Shown in pieces: positions 6,697-52,892 of a stretch of DNA of 64,000 nt; positions within the stretch are counted from its first letter, which is position 1, and every line of letters starts with the position of its first letter. Where the stretch lies: positions 1 to 64,000 of the forward strand of contig NZ_FOOW01000014.1 of NCBI RefSeq assembly GCF_900113305.1. The letters run 5' to 3'. Under the pieces are notes generated by a model that saw only the letters and a program-made list of their open reading frames with translations, ran no database searches and had not been told where the DNA came from. The DNA is from Prevotella sp. KH2C16. Its GTDB lineage: Bacteria; Bacteroidota; Bacteroidia; Bacteroidales; Bacteroidaceae. The position numbers and the translations under genes are program-made.

Positions 6697-6784
6697 CCTT
6701 TTAGCCGCCTTTTACTCTCCTTTTAGCCGTTAGAAGCATTCCTTTTAACGGCTAAAAGCAATCCTTTTAACGGCCTTTTACTTT
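6697..6784. repeat. Family A 11-bp array, copy 1 (8 units)
   Basis: Eight consecutive 11-bp units start at 6697, 6708, 6719, 6730, 6741, 6752, 6763 and 6774. Six begin CCTTTTA. Two are in reverse orientation (TTAGAAG, CTAAAAG) but keep the same 11-bp register. Three octamer-like units (TTTTATTC, CCTTATTC, TCTTAGTT) abut it on the left at 6672-6695. It lies downstream of the small leftward gene at 7.05-7.3 kb, about 160 bp upstream of the lipoprotein promoter. Confidence 0.9.
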
Positions 6785-7301: not shown

Positions 7302-7386
7302 ATTGTTTCTTTTATTAAACCTCTCCTCACCCCTCCTCCTGCAGGGAGGTGGCGTGAAACCGGTACAAAGAGGAGAAGCTATTGGC

Positions 7387-7426
7387 TTTTATTCTCTTAT
7401 TCTTTTATTCTCTTATTCTTTTATTC
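7387..7426. repeat. Octamer repeat, five copies
   Basis: TTTTATTC and TCTTATTC alternate five times without interruption. The stop codon of the neighbouring leftward gene and its last three codons (Ile-Lys-Glu) are encoded inside this array. Confidence 0.85.
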
Positions 7427-7673
7427 CATCCTTTTCCCTCCACAGGCAGATGAAGAGGAAGATGCACAGGGCTATGCTGATGCCCAATGCCACCGAGAGG
7501 CTGGTTACTATCAGATAGTATTCATGTACCAAGCCCCAGAGGTCATCGTTCATGCCGGCATGCGGCTCTACCATATACTTCATGTCGACGAAGGCGTTGA
7601 GCCATGTCATGAGGCCTGTTATCGACAGGCCGGCCAGCACGATGATTCCTGTGATTTTCTGCCAGTTCTTCAT
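7413..7673 (-). CDS. Small two-helix membrane protein, MKNWQKI type, copy 2
   Basis: 86 residues with hydrophobic helices at about 5-25 and 52-77 and a charged C-terminus. Its start shares MKNWQKI with the downstream neighbour, suggesting a local duplication. Its 5' leader consists almost entirely of octamer repeats, and its last codons fall in a second octamer array, so the gene is bracketed by simple repeats. Changes in repeat number would alter promoter-to-start spacing. The function is unknown. Confidence 0.55.
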   Translation of the reverse strand: MKNWQKITGIIVLAGLSITGLMTWLNAFVDMKYMVEPHAGMNDDLWGLVHEYYLIVTSLSVALGISIALCIFLFICLWREKDGIKE

Positions 7674-7674
7674 C

Positions 7675-7722
7675 TTTCATTCTTTTATTCTTTTATTCTC
7701 TTATTCTCTTATTCTCTTATTC
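7675..7722. repeat. Octamer repeat, six copies, in the leader of the adjacent gene
   Basis: Six uninterrupted 8-mers: one TTTCATTC, two TTTTATTC and three TCTTATTC. On the minus strand these read GAATAAGA/GAATAAAA and end 1 bp before the ATG at 7671-7673, leaving no room for another ribosome-binding site. Confidence 0.85.
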
Positions 7723-8655: not shown

Positions 8656-10773
8656 TTAATATTTGATTCCCATGTTGTGGAAGATGAAGCTGTAGATGTC
8701 GGCCGTCTCCTCGAGCTGCTTGCTCAGGGGCTTGCCGCCGCCGTGGCCCGCCTTGGTGTCGATGCGGATGAGCGTGGGTTGGTTGCCCGCGTTGGCCTCT
8801 TGCAGGGTTGCCGCGAACTTGAAGCTGTGGGCCGGAACGACGCGGTCGTCGTGGTCGGCGGTGGTAATGAGCGTGGCGGGATAGTTCACGCCCTTGCGGA
8901 TGTTGTGCAGGGGAGAGTAGCCCTTCAGGTAAGAGAACATCTCCTTGGAGTCGTCGCTCGTGCCGTAGTCGCTCGCCCAGTTCCATCCGATGGTGAACTT
9001 ATGATAGCGCAGCATGTCCATCACGCCTACGCGGGGGATGCAGACCTTGTAGAGGTCGGGCCGCTGCGTCATGCACGCTCCCACGAGCAGTCCGCCGTTG
9101 CTGCCGCCGGCGATGGCGAGATAATCACGGCTGGTATACTTGTTGGCGATGAGGTATTCGGCCGCGGCGATGAAGTCGTCGAACACATTCTGCTTCTGCA
9201 TCTTCGTGCCTGCCTGGTGCCACTCCTCGCCATACTCGCTGCCGCCGCGTATGCTGGGCTGGGCATAGACGCCTCCACGCTCCATGAAGGCCAGCAGCGA
9301 GGAGCTGAAGCTGGGCGTCATTGAGATGTTGAAGCCTCCGTAGGAATAGAGATAGGTGGGATTCTTGCCGTTGAGGCGGAGTCCCTTCTTATGGGTGATG
9401 AACATGGGCACGCGCGTGCCGTCCTTGCTCTCGTAGAACACCTCCTTGGTCTCATAGCCGGAGAGGTCGGCCTTTATGGCGGGCTTGGCGTAGGGGGTGG
9501 AGGAACCGCTCTCGTAGTCGTAGCGGTAGACCACATTGGGCTGGGTGAACGAGGTGAAGCTGAAGAATACCTCCTCGCGGTCTTTCTGTCCATATACGCC
9601 CACGGAGCCCGGTCCGGGCAGGCTCATCTCGCGGAGGAGCTTGCCGTCGAGGCTGTATATGCGCACCCTGTCGCAGGCATCCACCATATAGGTGAGGTAG
9701 AGCTTGCCGTCGATGACGCTGGCACTCTCCAGCACATCGTCGCCCTCCGGTATCAGGGTCTTCCAGTCGCCCACGCCCGGACGGCTGAGGTCGGCCACCA
9801 TGAGCTTATACTTCGGCGCGCCGTCGTTGGTGAGGATATAGATCTTGTCGCCGATGAACTCCACGGGCGAATAGATGTTGTCCATGTTCGCCGTCATCTG
9901 CACGAACTGCGCGTCGGGCTCCTTGAGGGATCGCACATAGAGATTAGAGCCCGCTCCCGCCCCGCTCTCGAAGAGCATCTGGAGGGTCTCGTCTTCGTTG
10001 ACATAGGTGGAGAAGAACTCCATCGGCTTCGAGGGGTTCTGATAGAAGAGGCGGTCGCTGCTTTGCGGCGTGCCGAGCTTGTGGTAGTAAATCTTGTGGG
10101 TGGAGTTCTTGCCGGAGAAGGCATGACCCTCCTCGGGCCTGTCGTAGGCGCTGTAGAAGAATCCGTCCTTATACCACGAGGCTCCGGAGAACTTTGCCCA
10201 CACGATGTGGTCGTCCAGCAGGCGGCGCGTCTGCAGGTCGATGACATAGAACTCCTGCCAGTCGCTGCCGCTGCGCGAGATGGAGTAGGCGCAGTAGCGG
10301 CCGTCGTGGGAGATGGATGTGCTCTTCAGGGCCACCGTGCCGTCGGCCGAGAGCTTGTTGGGATCGAGGAACACGCGGGCATTCTTCTCGTCGCCGAGGC
10401 GGTCCATCTCGTAGAAGACGCTCTGGTTCTGCAGTCCGTCGTTCCTGGAGAAATACCATTTGCCGGTCTTCTTGCTGAATGACGGTGCCGACACCTTGCC
10501 GTAGTTGGCCAGCTCCTTGAGCCGTTTCAGGATTTTGCCGCGGAACGGAATCTTCTGCAGGTATGTCTGCGTCAGCCGGTTCTCGGCCTCTACCCACTGG
10601 GCCGTGGCCTCCGAGTTGTCGTCCTCGAGCGGGCGGAAGGGGTCGGCCACCTGCTCGCCGAAGTAAGTGTCCACGGTGTTGTCGCGCGGAGCTACGGGGT
10701 ATTGAAGCCTCTGTGCCGTCATTGCCGTAGGTGCAATCATTGCAATTGCGAGTAATAGTTGTTTTTTCATCAT
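8656..10773 (-). CDS. Prolyl oligopeptidase family serine peptidase (S9)
   Basis: About 705 residues, starting at one of two adjacent ATGs (10771-10773 or 10768-10770) in front of KKQLLLAIAMIAPTAMTA, a signal peptide. An upstream in-frame ATG is rejected because it lies beyond the promoter. The N-terminal part is the beta-propeller. The C-terminal alpha/beta-hydrolase holds the nucleophile in GGSNGG (Ser about 557), the aspartate in DHDDRV and the histidine in AGHGGG. Such enzymes cleave short peptides after proline. The signal peptide places it in the periplasm or further out. Length is normal for S9A. Confidence 0.93.
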   Translation of the reverse strand: MMKKQLLLAIAMIAPTAMTAQRLQYPVAPRDNTVDTYFGEQVADPFRPLEDDNSEATAQWVEAENRLTQTYLQKIPFRGKILKRLKELANYGKVSAPSFSKKTGKWYFSRNDGLQNQSVFYEMDRLGDEKNARVFLDPNKLSADGTVALKSTSISHDGRYCAYSISRSGSDWQEFYVIDLQTRRLLDDHIVWAKFSGASWYKDGFFYSAYDRPEEGHAFSGKNSTHKIYYHKLGTPQSSDRLFYQNPSKPMEFFSTYVNEDETLQMLFESGAGAGSNLYVRSLKEPDAQFVQMTANMDNIYSPVEFIGDKIYILTNDGAPKYKLMVADLSRPGVGDWKTLIPEGDDVLESASVIDGKLYLTYMVDACDRVRIYSLDGKLLREMSLPGPGSVGVYGQKDREEVFFSFTSFTQPNVVYRYDYESGSSTPYAKPAIKADLSGYETKEVFYESKDGTRVPMFITHKKGLRLNGKNPTYLYSYGGFNISMTPSFSSSLLAFMERGGVYAQPSIRGGSEYGEEWHQAGTKMQKQNVFDDFIAAAEYLIANKYTSRDYLAIAGGSNGGLLVGACMTQRPDLYKVCIPRVGVMDMLRYHKFTIGWNWASDYGTSDDSKEMFSYLKGYSPLHNIRKGVNYPATLITTADHDDRVVPAHSFKFAATLQEANAGNQPTLIRIDTKAGHGGGKPLSKQLEETADIYSFIFHNMGIKY

Positions 10774-11030: not shown

Positions 11031-11118
11031 GTAAAAGGCCGCTAAAAGCTCGCCTTTTAGCCGTTAAAAGGAGAGTAAAAGGCCGCTGAAAGGAGAGTAA
11101 AAGGCCGCTAAAAGGAAT
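11031..11118. repeat. Family A 11-bp array, copy 2 (8 units)
   Basis: Eight contiguous 11-mers. GTAAAAGGCCG occurs three times, alternating with CTAAAAG-type units. One unit (CCTTTTAGCCG) is inverted in the same register. It lies between the fumarase terminator and the peptidase promoter. The flanking spacer from 10809 to 11030 contains short palindromes around CCCCCTATGGGG and CCCCCAGGGGG and no gene. Confidence 0.92.
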
Positions 11119-11234: not shown

Positions 11235-12893
11235 TTACTTCCGGCAGGTCTGACAGGGTGCCCACGGCTTGAGCTGCTTGAAGAAGTCGTTGCCCTTGTC
11301 GTCTACGAGGATGAAGGCCGGGAAGTCTTCCACGGTGATCTTCCAGATGGCTTCCATACCCAGTTCGGGGTATTCCACGCACTCGATCGACTTGATGGAG
11401 CCCTGCGAGAGCACGGCTGCCACGCCGCCGATGGTGCCCAGATAGAAGCCGCCGTGCTTCCGGCAGGCATCGGTAACCACCTGCGTGCGGTTGCCCTTGG
11501 CTATCATCACGAGGCTGGCTCCGTGGTCCTGGAACTCGTCTACATAGGGGTCCATGCGGTTGGCCGTGGTCGGTCCCATGCTTCCGCAGGGATAGCCCTC
11601 CGGCGTCTTGGCCGGTCCGGCGTAGAGGATGGGGTGATCCTTGAAGTAGGCCGGCATCTCCTCGCCTGCATCCAGTCGTGCCTTGAGCTTGGCGTGGGCG
11701 ATGTCGCGCGCCACGATGATGGTGCCCTTGAGGTTGACGCGGGTGGAGACGGGATACTTGGTGAGTTCGGCGCGCACGGCGTCGATGCCCTTGTCGAGGT
11801 CGATCACGATGCCCTTGCCGCCTTCGCCCGGCCGGCGATACTCCTCGGGAATGAGTTCCGTGGGGTTCTCGTCCATCCGCTCGAGCCAGATGCCGTCCTT
11901 GTTGATCTTGGCCTTGATGTTGCGGTCGGCCGAGCAGCTCACTCCCATGCCGATGGGGCACGATGCCCCGTGGCGCGGCAGGCGGATGACGCGGATGTCG
12001 TGGGCGAGGTATTTGCCGCCGAACTGTGCGCCGAGGCCTATCTTGTGGGCCTCGTCGAGGAGCTTCGCCTCGAGGTCGGTGTCGCGGAAGGCACGCCCCG
12101 TCTCGTCGCCCGTGGTGGGCAGGCTGTCGTAATACTTGATGCTGCCGAGCTTCACGGTGAGCAGGTTCTTCTCTGCCGAGGTGCCTCCGACGACGAAGCA
12201 GATGTGGTAAGGCGGGCAGGCCGCCGTGCCGAGGCTCTTCATCTTCTCCACGAGGAACGGGAGCAGGGTGCCCTCGTTCTGGATGGTGGCCTTCGTCATG
12301 GGATAGAAGTAGGTCTTGTTGGCTGAGCCGCCGCCCTTGGCCACCATCACGAAGCGGTATTCATCGCCCTCCACGGCCTCGATGTCGATCTGTGCGGGCA
12401 GGTTGCAGCGGGTGTTCACCTCGTCGTACATGTTGAGCGGGGCGTTCTGCGAATAGCGCAGGTTGTCCTGCGTGAAGGTGTCGAAGACGCCGCGGCTCAG
12501 CGCTTCCTCGTCCTCGAAGTCGGTCCACACGCGCTGTCCCTTCTCGCCGTGGATGATGGCGGTGCCGGTGTCCTGGCAGAAAGGCAGGATGCCCTTGGCT
12601 GCCGTCTCGGCGTTGCGCAGGAACTGCAGGGCCACATACTTGTCGTTCTCTGAAGCCTCGGGGTCGTTCAGGATGCTGGCTACTTGCTCGTTGTGCTCTC
12701 GGCGCAGCATGAACTCCACATCGTGGAAGGCCTGGCGTGCGAGCAGCGTGAGGGCTTCGGGAGAGACCTTGAGGATGGTCTTGCCCTCAAACTCGGCCGT
12801 GCTCACGCCCTCCTTGGACAAGAGCCGGTACTCGGTGGTGTCGGCGCCCAGCTGGAACATCGGGGCGTACTTGAAATCAGGTGTCTTACTCAT
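11235..12893 (-). CDS. fum: Class I fumarate hydratase (iron-sulfur)
   Basis: About 552 residues from [11 protein letters not shown]; an ATG five codons earlier is also possible. It interconverts fumarate and malate, which in this group serves the reductive branch to succinate. The N-terminal alpha domain and C-terminal beta domain are fused in one chain as in FumA/FumB. Visible: LPFCQDTGT with a cluster cysteine, [14 protein letters not shown], and the beta-domain block [15 protein letters not shown]. It ends in PCQTCRK. The gene appears to be alone, with its own terminator. Confidence 0.95.
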
Positions 12894-12990
12894 ATTCTTC
12901 CTCACCATTACCCTCCTGCGGGAGAGGGAACGCCGTGTGAGGTGTCGCGTTAAAGTTTATAATGTTGTTGTATCTGTAGTCTGCCGTTTA

Positions 12991-19154: not shown

Positions 19155-19231
19155 GCTTTTAGCCGTTAAAAGGAAGGCTTTTAACGGCTAAAAGCCCGCC
19201 TTTTAGCGGCCTTTTACTCGCCTTTTAACGG
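19155..19231. repeat. Family A 11-bp array, copy 3 (7 units)
   Basis: Seven contiguous 11-mers, from GCTTTTAGCCG through TTAAAAGGAAG to CCTTTTAACGG. Two are inverted, in register. It lies between the alpha-N-acetylglucosaminidase stop and the hflX promoter. CCGGCA on the left and TGCCGG on the right frame it. Confidence 0.9.
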
Positions 19232-24681: not shown

Positions 24682-24769
24682 CTAAAAGGGGAGTAAAAGG
24701 CCGCTAAAAGGAGAGTAAAAGGCCGCCTTTTACAAAGCTTTTAGCCGTTAAAAGGAAAGCAGGAAGCCG
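24682..24769. repeat. Family A 11-bp array, copy 4 (7 clear units plus a degenerate one)
   Basis: CTAAAAGGGGA, GTAAAAGGCCG, CTAAAAGGAGA and GTAAAAGGCCG repeat in order. Two units of opposite orientation (CCTTTTACAAA, GCTTTTAGCCG) and TTAAAAGGAAA follow. It lies between two convergent genes and beyond the nagB terminator. Confidence 0.92.
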
Positions 24770-36300: not shown

Positions 36301-36447
36301 AAGAGGAGCCTGTCCGACGGTCTTCAGGCATATCGGCAGCCATTTCCTGTGGGATTACACGCTGCTTGTAATGCGATTACACACCGCTTGTAACATCGTT
36401 ACACGCTGTTTGTAACTTGCCTGAAGACCGCCGGGCAGACTCCTCTT
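36301..36447. repeat. 30-bp inverted repeat enclosing a family B array
   Basis: The left arm 36301-36330 and the right arm 36418-36447 are reverse complements at 27 of 30 positions (ends AAGAGGAG and CTCCTCTT, inner GGTCTTCAGGCA). The 87-bp loop contains the 11-bp array. It lies between convergent genes. Confidence 0.85.
36354..36419. repeat. Family B 11-bp array, copy 1 (6 units)
   Basis: ATTACACGCTG, CTTGTAATGCG, ATTACACACCG, CTTGTAACATC, GTTACACGCTG and TTTGTAACTTG. The orientations alternate strictly, so each pair can form a hairpin with TTACA/TGTAA stems. Confidence 0.9.
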
Positions 36448-42219: not shown

Positions 42220-43734
42220 ATGGAAAACCCCAAACTGAAAATGTGCCCGAACAGGGTCGTTGCCTATTTGCAGAAACCTCCGTGTGAGTTTACCAAGGAG
42301 GATGTAATCCGTTTCATCCAGGCGAACGACATCCGCATGGTCAACTTCATGTATCCCGGTGGAGACGGGAAGTTGAAGACCCTGAACTTCGTCATCAACA
42401 GCCTTGAATACCTCAGCACGATCCTCTCCTGCGGGGAGCGGGTGGACGGGTCGAGCCTCTTCGACTTCATCGAGGCGGCCAGCAGCGACCTCTATGTGGT
42501 GCCGCGCTACTCCACGGCGTTCGTCGATCCCTTTGCCGAAATCCCCACGCTGGACATGCTCTGCGAGTTTTATAACCGCGACGGAAACCCTCTGGCCAAC
42601 TCGCCCGGGTATACTTTAAGAAAGGCGCAGCAAGTGCTCTTGGAGAAGGCGGGCATTGAGTTCGACGCCATGGGCGAACTGGAATACTATGTCATACGGC
42701 CTGCCGAAACGGTCTATCCCGCCCTTGCGCAGCACGGATATCACGAGTCGATGCCCTATGCCAAGACAAATGACTTCCGGGCGCGCTGCATGGACTTCGT
42801 GGCACAGTGCGGCGGACAGATCAAGTACGGACATTCCGAGGTGGGCAACTTCACTCAGGACGGCCTCACCTACGAGCAGAACGAGATAGAGTTCCTGCCC
42901 GTGCCCTGTCTGGAGGCCGCCGACCAGCTGCTCATAGCCAAGTGGGTGATTCGCAACGCGGCCTACCGCGAGGGACTGAATGTAACCTTTGCCCCCAAGA
43001 TAACTGTCGGCGAGGCCGGCTCCGGCCTGCATGTGCACATGCGCCTGATGAAAGACGGCCGCAGCGTGATGACCCGTCCCGACGGCAGCCTTACTGACGA
43101 GGCCCGCCGGGCCATAGCCGGCCTGATGGATCTTGCCCCGTCTATCACCGCCTTCGGCAACAAGAACCCCACCTCTTATTTCCGTCTGGTTCCGCATCAG
43201 GAGGCTCCCACGAATGTGTGCTGGGGCGTGAGCAACCGCTCGGCGCTGGTGCGCGTGCCGCTGGGGTGGACGGCCGGCGTGAACATGAGTGCCGAAGCCA
43301 ATCCGCAGGACCCCTTGTCGGGAGCCGGGTTCGACACCTCCGGCAAGCAGACCTTCGAGATTCGCAGCGGCGACGGCAGTGCCGATGTCTACCAGCTCAT
43401 CGCGAGCCTCTGCGTGGCCGTCCGTCATGGATTCGAGATGCCGGATGCCCTCGAGGTGGCGGAGCGCACCTTCGTCGACGGCAACATCCACGACGAGCGC
43501 CTCGCTGAGCGGTTTGCCCGTCTGGCTTCGCTGCCCGACAGCTGCGAGGCCTCTGCCGAATGCCTGGAGCGGCAGCGTGCCGTCTACGAGGAATACGGCG
43601 TCTTCAGCAAGTCGATGATTGACGGCGTGGAGCGCCAACTCAAGTCTTTCGGCGACCGAACGCTGAGGGCGGAGACAGAGGACGATAAGGAAAAGGTGAG
43701 CCGGCTTGTGGCTCGTTTCTTCCAGTGCGGATAG
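42220..43734 (+). CDS. glnA: Glutamine synthetase
   Basis: 504 residues from MENPKLKMCPNRV. The reading frame is open further upstream through the preceding gene, but this ATG follows a typical A-rich leader. The N-terminal beta-grasp part (IRMVNFMYPGGDGKLKTLNF) and catalytic domain with GELEYYV (metal ligand Glu), FAPKITVGEAGSGLHVHMRL, NKNPTSYFRLVPHQEAP and a C-terminal helical tail are visible. It ligates ammonia to glutamate. Length is in the GSI range, well below the roughly 730 residues of GSIII. No adenylylation-type tyrosine motif was found by eye. Confidence 0.9.
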   Translation: MENPKLKMCPNRVVAYLQKPPCEFTKEDVIRFIQANDIRMVNFMYPGGDGKLKTLNFVINSLEYLSTILSCGERVDGSSLFDFIEAASSDLYVVPRYSTAFVDPFAEIPTLDMLCEFYNRDGNPLANSPGYTLRKAQQVLLEKAGIEFDAMGELEYYVIRPAETVYPALAQHGYHESMPYAKTNDFRARCMDFVAQCGGQIKYGHSEVGNFTQDGLTYEQNEIEFLPVPCLEAADQLLIAKWVIRNAAYREGLNVTFAPKITVGEAGSGLHVHMRLMKDGRSVMTRPDGSLTDEARRAIAGLMDLAPSITAFGNKNPTSYFRLVPHQEAPTNVCWGVSNRSALVRVPLGWTAGVNMSAEANPQDPLSGAGFDTSGKQTFEIRSGDGSADVYQLIASLCVAVRHGFEMPDALEVAERTFVDGNIHDERLAERFARLASLPDSCEASAECLERQRAVYEEYGVFSKSMIDGVERQLKSFGDRTLRAETEDDKEKVSRLVARFFQCG

Positions 43735-43765
43735 TGGAAGAAAAATAAAAGACGGCTTCCAGCTT

Positions 43766-43831
43766 GACAAAATCGCCGATTTTGTCCCATGTTTTCGCCG
43801 ATTTTGTCGTACAATCTCGCCGATTTTGTCA
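43766..43831. repeat. Family C 11-bp array (6 units)
   Basis: Units GACAAAATCGC, CGATTTTGTCC, CATGTTTTCGC, CGATTTTGTCG, TACAATCTCGC and CGATTTTGTCA are contiguous and exactly 11 bp. The first is the inverse of the second, so a stem can form. GGCTTCCAGC occurs on both sides. It lies 31 bp after the glnA stop and about 87 bp upstream of the next promoter. Confidence 0.88.
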
Positions 43832-52625: not shown

Positions 52626-52826
52626 TGTCTGTGGCTTTAGTAGATGAGATACTGTTTGCTTATCATCACGGCCCGGCCTTCTGCTATGAGGGCGTGTTCA
52701 TGATACTGCAAATATACGATAATCTGATGACTATGACAAGGAAAGAGGATAAAAAAAAGTTAAGCCGGCGACCTTCGCGGGGCCTGCAAGCGGCGCGCCG
52801 GTTAGTCCGCAGTCGTTTTCGGGAAG

Positions 52827-52892
52827 ATTACACACGGCGTGTAATCGGATTACACGCCGTGTGTAATCGTGTTACACGCCGCTTGTAACATT
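52827..52892. repeat. Family B 11-bp array, copy 2 (6 units)
   Basis: ATTACACACGG, CGTGTAATCGG, ATTACACGCCG, TGTGTAATCGT, GTTACACGCCG and CTTGTAACATT. Orientations alternate, and the first two units form a perfect GATTACAC/GTGTAATC hairpin. Flanking sequence contains partial inverted matches (CGACCTTC, GGCCTGCA on the left; TGCAGGCC, GAAGGTCG on the right). The rest of the 52.6-53.25 kb gap is A+T-rich with no gene. Confidence 0.9.

Follow-up and report, generated by a model that had tools for sequence, protein, structure and literature searches.

Short intergenic arrays on a 22-bp lattice in Prevotella: candidate docking sites for a putative dimeric protein behind genes

The 64,000-nucleotide stretch of Prevotella sp. 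KH2C16 DNA analysed here (the window, part of contig 31 in a 3.22-Mb draft genome) carries short intergenic arrays that we read as REP/BIME-like DNA docking arrays for a putative dimeric protein, phased on one face of the helix. We infer this function from the DNA and give the reading a probability of roughly one in two. In most arrays, the dyad-symmetric ones, each unit is a variable core between two half-sites spaced by about one helical turn; gene 3' ends are the main location of the arrays. Each 22-bp unit would be a putative site for a dimer, or for a pair of DNA-binding domains, on one face of the double helix; as 22 bp make two turns, successive dimers would be aligned on that same face. 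Three families, A, B and C, occupy this lattice in the genome. The A4/T4 tracts would be the family A form of the half-site, with any added curvature acting as a helper or arising as a by-product and not defining the element, and the proteins of the other families would read other half-sites. The window contains the following arrays:

6697 to 6784, no strand assigned: family A array 1, eight 11-bp half-site units (T T T a T A T T), making four 22-bp units
11031 to 11118, no strand assigned: family A array 2, the site of the initial annotation, eight units (A A T A A a A A)
19155 to 19231, no strand assigned: family A array 3, seven exact units (T A T A T T T)
24682 to 24758, no strand assigned: family A array 4, seven exact units (A A A A T T A), with convergent genes on either side
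36353 to 36418, no strand assigned: family B array, three 22-bp units (R)TTACA-N7-TGTAA(Y), with convergent genes on either side
43765 to 43830, no strand assigned: family C array, three 22-bp units GACAAAATCG/CGATTTTGTC, 33 bp past the stop codon of gene 42220-43734
52826 to 52891, no strand assigned: family B array, three 22-bp units

The initial annotation had stated that an A4 or T4 tract occupies nearly every unit of the four family A sites in the window, and the tract is exact in 28 of the 30 units (8 + 8 + 7 + 7). Within array 2 the tracts start at 11033, 11044, 11055 (T4), 11066, 11077, 11088 (GAAA), 11099 and 11110, a step of exactly 11 bp with the A's on either strand; the phase is independent of strand as had been proposed, the step holding for A4 and T4 alike. 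The same annotation had named a loss of this phase in genome-wide copies as evidence that would count against it. In the window together with 30 stretches of the same genome fetched around matches (31 sequences, 430,520 bp), the phase was kept: TAAAAG/CTTTTA pairs occurred 151 times at a distance of 11 bp (91 on the same strand and 60 on opposite strands), and not once at 10 or at 12 bp. This comb ran on at 22, 33 and further multiples up to 77 bp and then ended, which corresponds to eight tracts, and a control motif, GAAAAT/ATTTTC, gave no comb in the same 430,520 bp. Matches to the family A pattern numbered 65, as against none for the reversed-pattern control. Chance is thus excluded as the source of the tract phase.

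Among the 36 family A arrays with at least three tracts, eight tracts were present in 20 and seven in nine, and no array had more than eight. The 7-bp spacers between tracts are by turns of a C-S-G core type and of a variable linker type; hence the repeat has a true period of 22 bp, and four such units make up a complete family A element. Its edges are sharp at 88 bp (4 x 22), as evidenced by the column information of 21 eight-tract arrays (21 of the 38 arrays were profiled), which stood at background just outside and thereby ruled out fading outer units for this family. The C-S-G core and the bases adjoining the tracts are conserved. Across the core (n = 79) the tract orientations were TT 30, TA 28, AA 13 and AT 8, and for complete tracts no significant association of orientation was detected (43 of 79 on the same strand, p = 0.32). 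Across the linker (n = 71) they were TT 27, AT 25, AA 19 and TA 0; the absence of T4-to-A4 (p = 1.8e-5) indicates that tract orientation in family A is constrained and not free. Local inversions inside a perfect lattice were considered as the origin of the mixed unit orientation, with this constraint noted against free flipping. Family A is also unevenly distributed by region, as 2 of its 38 distinct sites fall on five contigs (the C12-C17 set) that account for 28% of the genome (p = 8e-4, for contigs chosen post hoc) and six sites lie on the 75-kb contig C33, while families B and C occur on both contig sets. Two chromosomes might be behind this unevenness.

The two sister families, which like the 22-bp period go beyond what the initial annotation had noticed, keep the lattice of family A with other letters. 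Family B, (R)TTACA-N7-TGTAA(Y), mostly has three 22-bp units and is devoid of A-tracts; family C, GACAAAATCG/CGATTTTGTC, also mostly has three units, and its orientation switches within the array. When one mismatch was allowed, family B gave 358 matches versus 53 for its reversed pattern and family C gave 405 versus 2. The half-sites of both are inverted repeats, and in both, three strong units are flanked by outer ones that weaken with distance but retain a GC-N-GC core in register with the lattice (18 of 28 arrays profiled in B, 21 of 37 in C). Since family B stands on the lattice without A-tracts, the lattice is not there for the sake of A-tracts. Outside the 22-bp class, the window contains two 8/16-bp TTATTCTC repeat arrays (7386-7426 and 7673-7722) flanking a small ORF at 7413-7673; TTATTC also precedes family A array 1.

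The distribution of the arrays beyond the source genome was assessed in 52 stretches with 375 spacers from other species of the genus (taken as GTDB Prevotella), which were not picked for arrays, and in an "other families" sample of 19 stretches with 127 spacers that includes three genomes from two other genera of the same family. A lag of 22 was detected in 31 of the 375 genus spacers and in 20 of the 52 stretches, while lags of 19, 20 and 23 were found in one spacer each; lag 21, a multiple of the heptamer arrays also present in the genus, appeared in six spacers. In the other families, lag 22 was limited to one of 127 spacers (L233, a low-complexity spacer; p = 0.0012 against the genus) and lag 23 occurred twice. 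Among the 29 genus arrays with a 22-bp period and no shorter one, 22 were dyad-symmetric at p <= 0.05 and 17 at p <= 0.01 relative to column shuffles, and the remaining seven had no significant dyad in this test. Detected lengths in other species ranged from 3.5 to 12.4 units, and most arrays of the source genome have three to four tandem 22-bp units. Some arrays of other species have letters like those of family B (L250), C (L260) or A (L251), and others are unlike all three.

Pattern searches of whole genomes gave a similar picture of patchy occurrence. Two successive CTTTT-N7-AAAAG units were present in 30 of 299 genus genomes including the source genome (reversed control, 3 of 299), and two successive TTACA-N7-TGTAA units in 22 of 299, again with the source genome included (control, 0). 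The latter pattern was absent from all 294 sampled genomes of other genera in the order, the source genome being the only match among the 295 drawn. A looser direct pattern, TAAAAGG-N4-TAAAAGG, was found in 10 of 100 genus genomes including the source; four of them (G027, G049, G063 and G070) had 6-21 matches each, and the remaining five had one or two, about the level of the control. Across the order it was found in 19 of 295 genomes including the source, mostly as single matches, with eight each in G210 and G310. The array class is present in a good part, though not all, of the sampled genomes of the genus.

Other simple repeats were encountered in the course of these searches. Near-uniform 11-bp arrays of the TAAAAGG type, all in one orientation, lie at L105:7696-7793, L106:7656-7770 and L107:8916-8992 in other Prevotella genomes, and a more varied one, likewise in one orientation, at L108:9009-9342 in another; similar triples also occur in scattered other phyla. 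Heptamer arrays make up a second, separate class of simple intergenic repeats of the genus, with lag 7 in 14 of the 375 spacers. A convergent spacer at L092:5675-6126 (G016) contains units of no fewer than three different motifs, one after another, on a single 41-bp lattice, further 41-bp signals were present in L099, L217 and L233, and TRF made such calls in L100 and L109. Two spacers of another Bacteroidales family (L231:8214 and L231:9615) share a similar 23-bp CTCACAATCTTGTCAATTTTTAT-like repeat, which recalls the 23-nt period of BrickBuilt.

To describe the position of the arrays relative to genes, 103 arrays of families A, B and C were located in 71 own-genome stretches (868,751 bp) with our own simple hexamer gene caller. 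There were 45 arrays in convergent spacers, 39 in tandem and 13 in divergent spacers, with two inside called genes and four at stretch edges; by family, the median distance was 61-78 bp to the nearest stop codon and 179-200 bp to the nearest start. Among spacers of at least 80 bp, arrays occupied 45 of 70 convergent, 39 of 161 tandem and 13 of 86 divergent ones (convergent versus divergent, p = 2e-10), where occupancy rates such as 45/70 are inflated because the stretches had been fetched around arrays. In the other Prevotella species, lag-22 arrays were detected in 9 of 62 convergent, 19 of 241 tandem and 1 of 72 divergent spacers, and the shortage in divergent spacers was weaker (1/72 versus 28/303, p = 0.025). 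Within the window, array 2 lies 120 bp past the stop codon of the minus-strand gene 11235-12908, about 260 bp from a likely start near 10770 and 43 bp from a doubtful 59-aa ORF; the next start codon is 197 bp from array 1 and 127 bp from array 3, and array 4 has stop codons on both sides. The initial annotation had suggested an architectural role near promoters. A role at the level of DNA, through protein binding, is likely, but promoter architecture as the general role was rejected because the arrays favour gene 3' ends, in convergent and tandem over divergent spacers, and their distances to start codons are broad.

Among the alternatives to docking arrays, the one that fares best, although we regard it as rather unlikely, is a miniature mobile element (MITE or REPIN-like) that was copied by a transposase and whose phased sites would serve that transposase. 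The sharp 88-bp boundary of family A comes with TIR-like ends in the consensus (AAAGTAAAAGG...CCTTTTACTTT), though several copies have another tract orientation at an end. Alike copies lie close together (L021 and L022, and both copies of L019), from which we conclude that local copying happens; some eight-tract copies have one orientation order in common, several have the right half in common, and the spread within the genus is patchy. Against this explanation, the 20 eight-tract arrays display 17 different orientation orders by our own count, and no flanking duplication was prominent among about 2,000 choices of offset and length in 21 family A, 18 family B and 24 family C arrays (best counts of 12 versus 7.75, 6 versus 2.35 and 6 versus 2.91 expected, uncorrected), so that a reading of the arrays as the footprint of transposition was abandoned. 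A search with PF01797 (Y1 transposase, the RAYT family) gave no match in this 99.8% complete genome and was positive in 5 of 14 control genomes; a REP system with its RAYT was rejected on this result. The spacers behind the neighbour gene of array 2 were also compared in 19 relatives (gene identity up to 87%). None of the 19 had an A-type pair or a lag-22 array, and the spacers were too unlike for a joint or an empty site to be seen in them; five of the 19 contained other repeats, namely a heptamer in L033, L046 and L049, a 9/18-bp array in L041 and an 18/32-bp array in one.

In the view taken by the initial annotation, that of intrinsic curvature, the DNA is bent by the phased A4/T4 tracts, and the bend either influences promoters close by or draws in HU- or H-NS-like proteins. 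This view has in its favour the strict 11-bp tract phase, the occurrence of all four tract-orientation pairs across the core spacer, the CTTTT/AAAAG lattices of 29 further Prevotella genomes and the outcome of a bend model (dinucleotide wedge over 100 bp; SDs 22-26 deg). The curvature prediction that had been called for placed family A above its controls with a broad spread: the mean modelled bend of 21 eight-tract arrays was 77 +- 24 deg, compared with 56 deg for jittered spacers, 42 deg for shuffled sequences and 53 deg for array-free spacers. Values for arrays 1-4 of the window were 99, 127, 88 and 50 deg. Families B and C, at 59 and 65 deg, also exceeded their own shuffles (42 deg each), but family B was at about the level of plain spacers (59 versus 53 deg), and the A-tract phase vector was 5.3 for A, 3.3 for C and 0.07 for B. 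The proposal that tracts 11 bp apart add up to curvature thus stands in part: curvature of family A is plausible according to the model, with a modest gain over jittered spacers, whereas family B keeps the lattice with next to no phase vector. A-tract curvature is not common to the whole class and, as family B has no A-tracts, cannot explain it. Curvature would moreover have no need of the conserved C-S-G core and tract-adjoining bases, nor does it sit well with the constrained orientation across the linker or with the under-representation of arrays in divergent promoter spacers, and we consider it an unlikely account of the arrays. The dinucleotide period of the E. coli genome has been put at about 11.07 bp, and the majority of its periodic dinucleotides are reported not to cause bending (PMC7537859); we infer that 11 and 22 bp fit the in vivo helix without bending. 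Phased A-tract curved DNA and the 10-11-bp genomic periodicity (PMC7537859, PMC3940949) resemble family A in having A/T tracts about one helical turn apart, and differ in that the Prevotella period is exact, confined to bounded elements and common to a family free of A-tracts. A general caution follows, that phased A-tracts should not be taken as curvature devices before a check for sister families which keep the phase but not the A's.

Another explanation places the function in RNA, with hairpins serving as terminators, attenuators or 3'-end stabilisers in the manner of transcribed REPs. The arrays do lie at gene 3' ends, the half-sites of B and C are inverted repeats, and most arrays of other species are dyad-symmetric. 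Hairpins under selection would give an excess of complementarity, so that a deficit at several positions argues against such a role. In the inner units of family A, complementarity was below chance at +-2 to +-8 (z -2.1 to -3.6, positions within a tract being linked); the same was observed at +-2 and +-3 in family B (z -2.3 and -2.9) and at +-4 and +-5 in family C (z -4.2 each). The opposite direction was seen in inner units at +-1 of A (z 3.9) and at the nearly invariant +-4 of B (z 7.5), and outer units were mixed (C +-1 z 5.8, A +-8 z 2.8, B +-8 z 2.4). Compensating changes that preserve stem complementarity were accordingly not the pattern found, several positions being anti-complementary and few the opposite. 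In 12 other genomes, 89 distinct cores of the CTTTT type were complementary at +-1 in 12 cases versus 27.5 expected (p = 0.0005); at their remaining positions, and at all positions of 64 TTACA-type cores, complementarity was low but not significantly so. Of 79 core-spanning family A pairs, 51 were not T-to-A, comprising 43 A-A or T-T pairs, which cannot pair, and eight A-to-T; the lack of significance in the complete-tract orientation test makes the anti-complementarity of family A weak.

Evidence on terminators bears on the same RNA-level explanation. Intrinsic terminators were scored in 31 of 112 stop-to-array intervals, versus 21 in the reverse orientation and one in shuffled sequence. Their frequency was much the same at 3' ends that have A/B/C arrays and at those that lack them (28 of 90 versus 16 of 44 in convergent and 6 of 39 versus 25 of 119 in tandem spacers), as judged by a coarse detector that also fires in reverse in convergent spacers (18/90 and 17/44). 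The gene next to array 2 has a good intrinsic terminator, and the array lies past it. On the other side, all nine 3' ends beside lag-22 spacers outside families A, B and C scored as terminators, possibly by virtue of the repeats themselves. A role of the arrays as replacement for intrinsic terminators is not supported. A search of the window against Rfam gave no match at the gathering threshold. The RNA hairpin explanation, disfavoured by the anti-complementarity and the Rfam result, appears to us quite improbable. Least credible of all, at a very low probability, are neutral minisatellites grown by slippage with a 22-bp unit by accident, for which the heptamer and other simple arrays of the genus and the fading of the outer units of B and C with distance could be cited, but which fit poorly with a single sharp period among unrelated letters across species, the limit of eight tracts in family A, the dyad symmetry and the preference for 3' ends.

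The docking reading has points against it as well. With three half-site families of unrelated sequence, this genome would have to encode three readers or else a single tolerant one; the TIR-like ends, fixed length and partly common orientation orders also fit a small mobile element; and the seven arrays of other species that lack a significant dyad, the weaker divergent shortage there and the non-significant complete-tract test across the family A core do not help it. What persists between families and species is the lattice spacing and the dyad, while the half-site letters differ. The geometry, with half-sites one turn and units two turns apart in short arrays behind genes, seems to be what selection keeps. 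Less likely than not, and put forward tentatively, is the broader proposal of a class of Prevotella docking arrays in which this geometry is conserved and the recognised letters turn over between species and sister families, which would imply fast-diversifying paired DNA-binding proteins that mark or insulate the ends of transcription units. As for function, the most likely role, on weaker grounds, may be a topological one or that of a boundary, in the manner of REP/BIME elements, at the rear of transcription units, as for instance where supercoils build up between convergent genes; such a boundary or supercoil-relief function is suggested by likeness to BIMEs (PMC3733652, PMC2817692). If the docking reading is true, selection keeps position and helical phase, and not sequence, across a large bacterial genus of the gut, the rumen and the mouth. 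The reading would then open a way to study how neighbouring transcription units are kept separate in bacteria that lack a RAYT-driven REP system.

Several known systems invite comparison. The parC centromere of plasmid R1 consists of arrays of 11-bp half-sites read by ribbon-helix-helix dimers of ParR that are aligned on one face. ParR/parC systems are single plasmid centromeres, whereas the Prevotella arrays comprise dozens of chromosomal sites per family. The ends of the transposons Tn7 and Mu carry short groups of 22-bp, two-turn transposase sites, which are not known to be dyad-symmetric; the Prevotella arrays differ from them in that no transposon body was seen and no TSD was found. Our literature search, which covered mostly non-subscription journals, returned among the matches listed none on 22-bp phased arrays in Prevotella.

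Within the order, Porphyromonas gingivalis has intergenic tandem arrays with reported periods of 22, 23 and 41 nt (PMC4596501). Its BrickBuilt (23 nt) and MITE464/PgRS (41 nt) MITEs are intergenic tandem arrays in Bacteroidales like the present ones (PMC4596501), and 41-bp arrays occur in Prevotella too. BrickBuilt elements are described there as direct repeats of 1 to about 23 copies inside leader and tail segments with IS5-like TIRs, putative TSDs being present in three of the four copies that have both TIRs (PMC4596501). Compared with this, family A has four mosaic units, flanks that are not conserved and no TSD that could be found. On a comparison of periods alone, those of P. gingivalis hint at a wider Bacteroidales habit.

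There is also a likeness to the REP/BIME elements of E. coli (GTAG-/CGTC-tagged; PMC3733652, PMC2817692). REP/BIME elements and the Prevotella arrays are alike in being short, dyad-symmetric intergenic units that are clustered, number many per genome, have a mosaic of orientations and lie between convergent and co-directional genes. The Prevotella units qualify as short, palindromic, extragenic and multi-copy by the inverted half-sites of B and C, the dyads in 22 of 29 arrays of other species and the mere 2 of 103 arrays inside genes, and their location between convergent or co-directional genes agrees with that of REPs. E. coli BIMEs are reported to bind IHF and gyrase, and REP palindromes to be preserved as if through complementary mutations (PMC3733652, PMC2817692). 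In contrast to REP/BIME systems, no Y1 (RAYT-type) transposase was found in the Prevotella genome, and its units are locked to 22 bp with 11-bp half-sites; in contrast to REP palindromes so described, several variable unit positions are anti-complementary, and all four orientation pairs are represented among the family A tracts on the two sides of the core. Since the REP features that we looked for are thus partly lacking (no RAYT, no compensating changes), the arrays are not classed as REP, but they may work like them.
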